Below, in pieces: positions 30,066 to 32,368 of a stretch of 64,000 bases of DNA (the first letter of the stretch is position 1; each line of letters begins with the position of its first letter). Under the pieces are notes generated by a model. That model saw only the letters and a program-made list of their open reading frames with translations. It made no database searches and had not been told where the DNA came from. The stretch is from Thiomicrospira sp. XS5 (GTDB lineage: Bacteria > Pseudomonadota > Gammaproteobacteria > Thiomicrospirales > Thiomicrospiraceae), in the NCBI RefSeq assembly GCF_001507555.1, contig NZ_LQBO01000001.1, positions 372,001 through 436,000 of the forward strand, in the 5' to 3' direction. The position numbers and the translations under genes were made by a program.

Positions 30066-30087
30066 TTCGCTTGGTACGCAGAAAGTA

Positions 30088-30113
30088 AAAAACCACCAGG
30101 CCTGGTGGTTTTT
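30088..30113. terminator. Bidirectional terminator, best-formed CCAGGCCTGG element
   Basis: Perfect inverted repeat with 13-bp arms (AAAAACCACCAGG and its complement) and no spacer, between convergent genes ending at 30065 (+) and 30140 (-). Both strands exit into a T run, as in an intrinsic terminator. Confidence 0.85.
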
Positions 30114-30139
30114 GAGATGAACCGTAAAACGGCTTTAAG

Positions 30140-31180
30140 TTATCGTTGCTTGAAGTGTTTGGCGGATTTGACCATTTTGCTGAAGCGCTTGTCTTGTGCG
30201 CGTTTTTCCGCCAAAGTCACGGCGTTAAACGCTTGCTCCTTCATCAGCTTGTGGTAGTTCACCAAACGGCGTTCCGCCAACTGACTGGATTCAATCGCCG
30301 CCCGAACCGCACATCCGGGTTCGGACTGGTGCTGACAATCGGAAAACTTACACTGCTCCGCCAAAGTGGCGATATCGGCAAAGGTTTCATCCACGCCCTG
30401 TTCACAATCCGCCAATTGCAATTCCCGCATGCCCGGCGTGTCCAGCAACAACACACCAGAAGCCGTCAAATGCAACGAACGCGCCGTCGTGGTGTGACGC
30501 CCTCGGCTGTCGTCTTCGCGAATCCGATTGGTTTCCTGAACGTCACCGCCCAACAGCGTGTTCACCAACGTGGATTTGCCCACGCCGGACGACCCCAAGA
30601 AAGCCAGCGTATGGCCGGGCAACAACCACAGTTCCAACGCCTGTAAAGTCGCCGAATCATGGGCATTGACCGCAAACACCGGCAGCATCTTATCCAGCGC
30701 CTGAACCGCTTCCAAAAACGATTCCGGCTCATCGCACAAATCGGCTTTGGTGAGCACAACAATCGGCTCCACACCAGCCTCATGCGCCAACGCCAAATAG
30801 CGCTCAATGCGGTTCAAATTAAAATCGTTGTTCAAAGAACTGACAATCAAAACCGAGTCCACATTCGCGGAAATCAATTGGCGATCAACCCGTGTGCCCG
30901 CCGCCTTTCGCGAAAACAACGACGCTCGGTCCAACAAGCGAACAAAGCGATGCTCGGCATCGATTAAAACCCAGTCGCCCACCGCCAGATTAGGAATGGA
31001 TTGTGTCATCATCATGGACAACGGACCTTCAGTGGTCAATAGCTGAATAATCGAACGTTCGATGCCGAAGACACGCGCCGGAATCAAGGTTTCCAACGCA
31101 TCAAGTGACAGTTGGTGTTGAAAAAAGGGTTTCCACCCTAATTGATGAAGAGAATAATGTGATGTCATCATAAGCCCCAT
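30140..31180 (-). CDS. rsgA: RsgA/YjeQ-type circularly permuted GTPase (ribosome small-subunit maturation)
   Basis: A 346-residue GTPase with OB-fold N-terminus (AVGDWVLIDAE), then permuted G motifs: G4 TKAD before G1 GSSGVGKST, G2-like RGRHTTT and G3 DTPGM, and the C-terminal zinc knuckle CKFSDCQHQSEPGC. RsgA proteins help the 30S subunit mature. It resembles the longer paralogue type starting HQLGWKPFF. The start is uncertain: the ATG at 31180 has no ribosome binding site, while ATGs at 31171 and 31168 follow GGGG. A leader peptide and mutually exclusive hairpins lie upstream (31181-31320). It may be a second copy, since the housekeeping rsgA is not seen here. Confidence 0.88.
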   Translation of the reverse strand: MGLMMTSHYSLHQLGWKPFFQHQLSLDALETLIPARVFGIERSIIQLLTTEGPLSMMMTQSIPNLAVGDWVLIDAEHRFVRLLDRASLFSRKAAGTRVDRQLISANVDSVLIVSSLNNDFNLNRIERYLALAHEAGVEPIVVLTKADLCDEPESFLEAVQALDKMLPVFAVNAHDSATLQALELWLLPGHTLAFLGSSGVGKSTLVNTLLGGDVQETNRIREDDSRGRHTTTARSLHLTASGVLLLDTPGMRELQLADCEQGVDETFADIATLAEQCKFSDCQHQSEPGCAVRAAIESSQLAERRLVNYHKLMKEQAFNAVTLAEKRAQDKRFSKMVKSAKHFKQR

Positions 31181-31277
31181 AACGCTTAAGCGTTGTAAGA
31201 AATCAAATTCTGGGGCTGAAAAGGCCCCGGTACACTGACCGGGTAGCGAAGAATAAATCTACGAAAAAACTACCCGG
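31173..31277 (-). promoter_or_regulatory. Structured leader with competing hairpins upstream of rsgA
   Basis: Read on the minus strand, four stems share arms in a chain. Stem 1:2 joins 31270-31277 with 31239-31246 (8 bp). Stem 2:3 joins 31238-31243 with 31226-31231 (6 bp, 6-nt loop). Stem 3:4 joins 31224-31228 with 31212-31216 (GGGGC/GCCCC). Stem 4:5 joins 31212-31217 with 31173-31178, covering the GGGG and start-codon region of rsgA. A perfect palindrome AACGCTTAAGCGTT (31181-31194) sits inside the last loop. Forming one stem excludes the next, the layout of an attenuator. Confidence 0.65.
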
Positions 31278-31297
31278 AGGCTTTTAACAACAATCAT
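31259..31297 (-). CDS. Putative 12-residue leader peptide of rsgA
   Basis: MIVVKSLRVVFS followed by TAG. The ATG has GGAGG (31304-31308) at 6-bp spacing, a stronger ribosome binding site than rsgA itself. Its stop lies inside the loop of stem 1:2 and its codons 6-9 form one arm of that stem, so ribosome position on this peptide would choose between the downstream hairpins. No protein evidence is possible from sequence alone. Confidence 0.55.
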   Translation of the reverse strand: MIVVKSLRVVFS

Positions 31298-31338
31298 CAA
31301 TATCCTCCGTTTGAAATAGAAATATAAGGTTGGTTTTT

Positions 31339-31347
31339 ATTATAGCA
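31339..31347 (-). promoter_or_regulatory. Extended -10 promoter of the rsgA leader
   Basis: On the minus strand the sequence reads TGCTATAAT, an extended TGn plus perfect TATAAT. No good -35 hexamer was seen. Transcription would start near 31332 and give a leader of about 150 nt that includes the peptide and hairpins. Confidence 0.55.
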
Positions 31348-31471: not shown

Positions 31472-32368
31472 ATGATTCACCATCCCACTAAACATCCAAG
31501 CACCACAACCTTTGGTCAATATCTTAAAAATCGCCAGGCCTGGTGGTTTTTAGTCTTTTACTTACTGGGATTAACATCATCCGTCCAGGCCGAAACCCGT
31601 GAAAACTGGAACTATGAATCCCGCTTCACGGCAGAGGGGTTTAAGGCTTCCGGAAAGTCCGGCACCTATGCTTACGACCCCCATGTTTGGGTCTATACAA
31701 CCGCATTTGCAAAGCGCTTCGGCATGCCGGAAAAATGGATTGATGATTCCTTAAAAGGAGCGGAAGCCTTGGCTTACCGAGTAGACCGAACTTATTACAT
31801 TAAACAATGCGGTTACTTTGGGGATATGAAGAAATGCCGCACTCCAATTGCCTGTATGCTGGATTTATATATCCCCTCTTCGGCTAACTTACCTTGGAAT
31901 ACAGAATTGCGTTATGACTCTCGATATGGAAAAAAATCGGTTAGAGCATTAACAACAAACGAACCATCAAGCATCTACAAAAGAATCACTAAACGTGGCA
32001 CCCATCTTTTAGGCGCCAAATTTGGATTGGATTTAGTAGGAATTGTCTACGGGAAAGATAAACGTAGTTCTATTGGAAGTTATACGATTGCCGAGTACGA
32101 AATAGGGCTGTATAGAAATCTTGATTATATTTCAGGAGCAACAAGCTGTGCATTCCAGAGAGTAAAAGACGCCGAAGTCAGAATAAATCAACCTGTTTTT
32201 AGGGAGAATGGTTCCGTCAACGTTTCTAAAAGCTATAACAAAATTGCTCATAAAATAGAAATCCCCAACAGCTTTATGGATAGAGTCGAAAGCTATGCAG
32301 AAAAAGAATATGAACCCCATAGTCTGGCTAAAGACTTGGAAAATAACCTGCAGCAAAAAGGTAAATAA
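31472..32368 (+). CDS. Exported protein of unknown function
   Basis: A 298-residue protein of no family I recognise. A signal peptide is likely (residues 20-40, cleavage after SSVQA), and its n-region and hydrophobic start (NRQAWWFLVF) are encoded by a CCAGGCCTGG palindrome with its usual T-rich flank. The mature part is rich in Tyr, Lys and Ser, with four cysteines (CGYFGDMKKC, PIACML, SCAF) that could form disulfides. Its DNA is visibly more AT-rich than neighbouring genes, which suggests recent acquisition. No clear ribosome binding site precedes the ATG. Confidence 0.7.
   Translation: MIHHPTKHPSTTTFGQYLKNRQAWWFLVFYLLGLTSSVQAETRENWNYESRFTAEGFKASGKSGTYAYDPHVWVYTTAFAKRFGMPEKWIDDSLKGAEALAYRVDRTYYIKQCGYFGDMKKCRTPIACMLDLYIPSSANLPWNTELRYDSRYGKKSVRALTTNEPSSIYKRITKRGTHLLGAKFGLDLVGIVYGKDKRSSIGSYTIAEYEIGLYRNLDYISGATSCAFQRVKDAEVRINQPVFRENGSVNVSKSYNKIAHKIEIPNSFMDRVESYAEKEYEPHSLAKDLENNLQQKGK
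31534..31543. repeat. CCAGGCCTGG palindrome encoding part of a signal peptide
   Basis: Exact copy with flank tggttttta, read in frame as Gln-Ala-Trp (residues 22-24) of the exported protein starting at 31472. Confidence 0.85.

Follow-up and report, generated by a model that had tools for sequence, protein, structure and literature searches.

The window analyzed here (64,000 nucleotides of Thiomicrospira sp. XS5) contains on its minus strand a gene of the RsgA family, rsgA2, preceded by a leader with a short open reading frame (ORF) and five segments that can pair in mutually exclusive ways. We keep the segment numbering, 1 to 5, of the initial annotation, which had been made from the sequence, and all of the pieces that it had described are present where it had placed them in the minus-strand region 31347-31168. 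The features of the locus, most of them recognized from sequence, are as follows:

31339..31347, minus strand: extended -10 promoter TGCTATAAT, a perfect match
31304..31308, minus strand: GGAGG, Shine-Dalgarno (SD) sequence of the leader peptide
31259..31297, minus strand: leader ORF MIVVKSLRVVFS, 12 codons plus stop, ATG to TAG, also supported by conservation
31270..31277, minus strand: segment 1 CCGGGTAG, within the ORF from nucleotide 21 (the aligned block starts at nucleotide 20)
31239..31246, minus strand: segment 2 CTACCCGG, partner of 1 or 3 by duplex energies and compensatory changes
31224..31231, minus strand: segment 3 ACCGGGGC, partner of 2 (via ACCGGG) or 4 (via GGGGC)
31211..31217, minus strand: segment 4 AGCCCCA, partner of 3 or 5 by covariation
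31181..31194, minus strand: small hairpin AACGCTTAAGCGTT, immediately 5' of segment 5
31173..31179, minus strand: segment 5 TGGGGCT, containing the GGGG SD of rsgA2 (4:5 covariation, predicted accessibility)
30140..31171, minus strand: rsgA2, a second RsgA-type circularly permuted GTPase (Pfam, TIGRFAM and structure matches, tree)
31472..32368, plus strand: divergently transcribed ORF of 298 amino acids, no Pfam match

Judged by its sequence, the product of rsgA2 is an RsgA family GTPase, with matches to Pfam RsgA_GTPase PF03193 (3.4e-51), TIGR00157 (2.2e-49) and solved RsgA structures (E of 2e-39), and with the motifs TKAD, GSSGVGKS and DTPG in permuted order in its translation; binding to the 30S subunit and 30S-stimulated GTPase activity are putative. 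The C-terminal zinc motif CX4CXHX5C is kept (CKFSDCQHQSEPGC), which rules out a zinc-independent paralog. The ORF is open from 31180, and the start codon is likely the ATG at 31168 or 31171, not 31180. The gene had been taken at first for plain rsgA, but the same genome codes elsewhere for a canonical rsgA that is 31% identical to it, so that rsgA2 is a second copy. In the tree, its clade is separate from canonical RsgA (support of 100/100), and we consider it a distinct accessory paralog (RsgA2), not the housekeeping RsgA. RsgA2 shares with RsgA/YjeQ, the housekeeping 30S assembly GTPase, the domain family, the permuted GTPase and the zinc motif, and differs from it by its separate clade, its accessory nature and its patchy occurrence. 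The G1 motif is GSSG(V/A)GKS in RsgA2 and mostly GPSG or GQSG in canonical RsgA. A minority of the genomes of the window's family code for rsgA2, as do 207 of the 297 Vibrionaceae genomes sampled, and in Vibrio, Photobacterium, Shewanella and Pseudoalteromonas copies are carried by secondary replicons or plasmids. Carriage by phages was discarded, as no viral contig relative was found, and so was membership among defense genes, for which only weak matches to GTPase motifs appeared. Two papers that pair this GTPase with Vibrio concerned genes of other species.

The leader of the window is predicted to fold at -63.2 kcal/mol (z of -4.2), which beats 200 of 200 dinucleotide shuffles, and its own GGAGG (31308-31304) is also able to pair with CCTCC at 31280-31276. 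The lack of a T run after the 3:4 hairpin had been pointed out before and is borne out, as the terminator search identified no intrinsic terminator with a T run in the leader; the single terminator-like match, at 31139-31126, is a coding stretch of rsgA2 that encodes the conserved LGWKPFF. Transcription attenuation or termination within the leader is ruled out by the missing T run. The Rfam covariance models gave no gathering match in the window and nothing convincing at E values up to 1 on eight related loci, so the leader was dropped as a member of a known RNA family. Pairing of AUGAUUGUA with the start region of rsgA2, inspected by eye, was rejected as well, the matches being only short and inconsistent.

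The 65 unique leaders identified upstream of rsgA2 come from Thiomicrospira-type bacteria, Vibrio, Photobacterium and Pseudoalteromonas, the peptide ORF and the stem chain being shared by numerous marine bacteria, and since the whole arrangement recurs in these other species, we can dismiss chance as its origin. The peptides read MIVVKSLRVDFS in Thiomicrorhabdus heinhorstiae, MRVVNLLRVAFR in Hydrogenovibrio sp. SC-1, MIVFRTCRVDFS in a third genus beside these two, MIVLKTNRAQRD in Photobacterium, MIVMNNTNWAVKG and MIVFKTHPATIEKQSGHSTLN in other Vibrionaceae, and MIVLLSHPVKVVARCD in Pseudoalteromonas. The short peptide, whose conservation in relatives the initial annotation had proposed as a check, starts with MIV in about 95% of the cases and has variable residues after it. 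Leaders were initially recognized by their position and stems upstream of rsgA2, and they were then collected by a rule that combined an SD-like motif, a third codon for Val and a CCGGG(G/A) further downstream; this rule retained 74 of the 102 loci first inspected, to which a longer inspection added a few. Among 63 unique ORFs, Ile is encoded at codon 2 in 60, always as ATT, with R, F or N in the remaining three, and Val at codon 3 in all 63 (GTA in 52, GTT in 9 and GTC in 2, that is, synonymous change only). Because the collecting rule asked for Val at this codon, the invariance of Val is partly imposed, but nothing in the rule imposed the predominance of ATT and GTA. The promoter motif TGnTAnnnT lies 23 to 85 nucleotides upstream of the ORF in 42 of the 65 leaders, against 5.3 expected from shuffles. 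The segment 1 block begins at ORF nucleotide 20 in 40 of the 65 leaders and at nucleotide 23 in 17, a shift of exactly one codon, and segment 2 begins 9 to 198 nucleotides beyond the stop codon. Hairpins resembling AACGCTTAAGCGTT can be recognized by eye in the leaders of Vibrio and Photobacterium.

Pairing between the ORF and segment 2 involves the purine-rich second half of the ORF, which consequently has many Lys, Arg, Glu and Gln codons, and a C/U-rich tract before segment 2. This 1:2 duplex averages -21.6 kcal/mol between cognate partners and -17.8 kcal/mol with the partner of another species, an average advantage of 3.8 kcal/mol over the 65 leaders. Covariation was assessed in a block alignment of 47 distinct leaders, with shuffled and slid controls, the blocks being anchored on complementary motifs, which favors the tested structures. 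For 1:2 plus 3:4, 89.8% of the cells are paired and 28 are double-change cells, against a shuffled mean of 9.6 (reached in 0 of 500 shuffles) and above every slide; for 2:3 plus 4:5, 83.3% of the cells are paired, with 29 double-change cells against 16 (0 of 500). Compensatory changes exceed the controls in both alternative structures, covariation of the stems being a check that the initial annotation had proposed. Taken singly, 2:3 is paired in 97% of cells and 3:4 in 94%, but the covariation of 2:3 rests on one pair because five of its six pairs never vary, and the support for 4:5 is clear yet uneven across lineages. Two marks of a translational attenuator are found at the locus, a short upstream ORF with its own SD and mutually exclusive covarying stems, the last of which covers the SD of rsgA2. 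By this comparison, the ORF, its MIV start, the five-segment chain and the position of segment 1 are conserved, and the stems covary.

The leader is not universal. It is degenerate in a close relative (G027) whose rsgA2 is 76% identical and missing in several Vibrio lineages in which rsgA2 itself is present, and its presence on the rsgA2 tree needs at least three changes. Loss in relatives that retain the gene, which had been named in advance as evidence against the leader, does therefore occur in G027 and in several Vibrio operon types, against an overwhelming conservation elsewhere. In six of the loci without a leader (L039, L040, L042, L168, L171 and L182), rsgA2 follows genes for a GNAT acetyltransferase, an AraC-type protein or a MerR-methyltransferase in apparent operons, perhaps a stress setting. 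At four other loci (L170, L174, L176 and L183), the MIV start is kept (MIVFNPKRHESKTGL, MIVAMHLERRGS, MIVAMPH) and the CCCGG..CCGGG chain is absent. MIV thus seems to be conserved independently of these stems, which gives it a role beyond what the pairing relay alone explains.

A covariance model built on segments 2 to 4 matched only the window genome and one relative among 369 gammaproteobacterial genomes, and nine genomes, one match each, among 395 of the order of Photobacterium, with eight of the nine matches preceding rsgA2. Pattern and covariance-model searches gave no sign of a wider regulon: each genome with the element has a single one, located at rsgA2, if coincidences in coding sequence and the ninth genome are set aside. 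There (G818; L194 and L203, contig G818:C128), a leader with the full chain, MIVSNTNWARRKLVL, precedes the gene for a standalone 127-residue TipAS antibiotic-recognition protein. Four close relatives of this TipAS gene lack the leader, and no match to the protein was found in 197 Vibrionaceae genomes or in the 10 other genomes of the G818 family. TipAS proteins bind thiopeptides. Thiostrepton blocks IF2-dependent initiation, A-site delivery and translocation (PMC5960728). In this one genome, the placement of the leader points to translation inhibitors as the signal, and this single case supports a drug that would halt ribosomes at or near the start.

The pairing scheme can be read together with the footprint of the ribosome. 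The edge of a ribosome held at a start codon lies at +16 to +18 (PMC12121999), and the toeprint on the MIN upstream ORF of Bacillus subtilis is at +16 (PMC9226507), so a ribosome at codon 1 spares segment 1, the block of which starts at nucleotide 20 or 23. Over 62 leaders, the predicted accessibility of the rsgA2 SD does not change with a ribosome at codon 1 (p of 0.45) or 2 (p of 0.23) and drops with a ribosome at codon 3 (p of 3e-4) and at codons 6 and 8 (p of 1e-8). With codon 8 masked, segment 2 moves from 1:2 (median of 0.83) to 2:3 (0.82). Predicted accessibility is low in every state, with medians of 0.25 for naked leaders and 0.08 with a ribosome at codon 8, and the naked window leader is mostly closed (0.08) because its 4:5 stem is strong. 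Constrained folding describes equilibrium and ignores cotranscriptional kinetics, and we take it as a consistency check rather than a proof.

On these sequence comparisons and folding predictions, we consider it probable that the leader is a translational switch for rsgA2 that reads the passage of ribosomes beyond the first codons of the upstream ORF. A ribosome translating the peptide, or halted past about codon 3, would cover segment 1, leading to 2:3 plus 4:5 and a hidden rsgA2 SD (OFF), and if the leader were not initiated, or a ribosome were arrested on its first or second codon, segment 1 would be free, 1:2 and 3:4 would form, and rsgA2 would be translated (ON). With five segments, covering the first would close the rsgA2 start, which would reverse the usual attenuator in which a stall means ON. 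Start-codon arrest alone does not account for the conservation of I2 and V3, given that codons 2 and 3 vary in vmlR, and this counts against the proposed reading. The natural signal would probably be impaired initiation or impaired first elongation steps, with start-codon-arresting antibiotics or 30S subunits that function poorly as possible causes. Under such stress, the 30S subunits would be the target of RsgA2, which would stay silent in good growth, when excess RsgA would be harmful. Overproduction of RsgA reduces growth and 70S formation (PMC10475562), and this harm is a reason for keeping rsgA2 tightly silent. The initial annotation had proposed a peptide-coding leader whose exclusive stems control how an RsgA-type gene is translated, which the sequence analysis supports, the stems covarying and a terminator being absent. 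Its further suggestion, that stalling within the peptide is the inducer, is not supported, since by computation a ribosome over segment 1 yields 2:3 plus 4:5, the closed state.

The same computation bears on classical drug- or peptide-induced attenuation, in which the nascent peptide would stall the ribosome inside the ORF, after MIV or near its end, and open the gene as in ermC or toiL. The conservation of MIV with only synonymous change at codon 3, its persistence at the four loci lacking the stem chain and the TipAS case would all fit this mechanism. However, a ribosome stalled past codon 3 sits on segment 1, with 4:5 as the result, and ribosomes at codons 6 to 8 lower the predicted accessibility (a computed result only), contrary to the ermC type; segment 2, at 9 to 198 nucleotides past the stop, is in most leaders out of reach of the stalled ribosome, and the residues after V3 vary, so we regard this mechanism as unlikely. 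Shortage of isoleucyl- or valyl-tRNA could hold the ribosome at codon 1 or 2, which would free segment 1 and open rsgA2, and Ile-Val at codons 2 and 3 with fixed codon use agrees with such amino acid attenuation. It is nevertheless very improbable, as there is a single codon of each, three leaders encode R, F or N at codon 2, the known ilvB leader is enriched in such codons (PMC11109978), and RsgA has no known tie to branched-chain synthesis.

The strong and covarying RNA structure would also suit a switch worked by RsgA2 itself, a ribosomal protein, an ion or cold acting on the stems, with the ORF in a minor role, and autoregulation is common among genes related to the ribosome. Such a ligand, protein or temperature switch is quite improbable given that the ORF, its start and the constant spacing between it and segment 1 are conserved, that segment 1 is displaced by exactly one codon and that no Rfam family matches. 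A leader with no regulatory function, in which linkage to rsgA2 or chance would have preserved a small ORF next to structured DNA, agrees with its loss in some lineages, but the covariation against shuffled and slid controls, the z-score of the fold and the recurrence in distant families and once at another gene make this extremely unlikely.

Attenuators of the ermC type have four segments, and a stall over segment 1 gives 2:3 and frees segment 4 (ON). The rsgA2 leader resembles them in its leader peptide, mutually exclusive stems and sequestered SD, and differs by one extra segment that would reverse the sign and by the C-terminal end of its peptide, where no arrest motif is conserved. In the toiL upstream ORF of Escherichia coli topAI-yjhQP, a short upstream ORF sequence likewise helps to hide the downstream SD; toiL senses ribosome-targeting drugs and is induced by start-codon arrest (tetracycline, retapamulin) (PMC12121999), but there the stalled ribosome breaks the hiding hairpin directly, at later codons too (stall = ON), and Rho acts, whereas the five-segment relay of rsgA2 predicts ON only with absent or very early held ribosomes. 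The vmlR uORF(MIN) of B. subtilis is similar in its very short AUG AUU ORF and mutually exclusive stems, and its inducers hold ribosomes at the start codon; it differs in combining transcription termination with an SD hairpin and in controlling an ABC-F resistance factor, and its codons 2 and 3 vary among relatives (MIN, MDN, MDK, MRK) (PMC9226507). No description of the MIV leader element was found in the open-access literature, in agreement with the earlier statement that no described case was known. We tentatively propose, as a possibility somewhat short of even, a new class of MIV-leader upstream ORFs that would report first-codon arrest, with a five-segment relay inverting the attenuator logic and an inducible second RsgA as a 30S stress or antibiotic-response factor. 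If true, this would be a widespread and undescribed control element in Vibrionaceae, it would place a ribosome assembly GTPase under a control that reads the first translation steps directly, and it would suggest a role of the second RsgA in responses to stress or drugs.

Last, a palindrome, CCAGGCCTGG, lies in a terminator-like repeat after rsgA2 (window positions 30085-30115), with a near copy at about 31535-31545 within the divergent ORF and a further copy upstream of the leader at locus L005; it is possibly an abundant short palindrome of this bacterial group.
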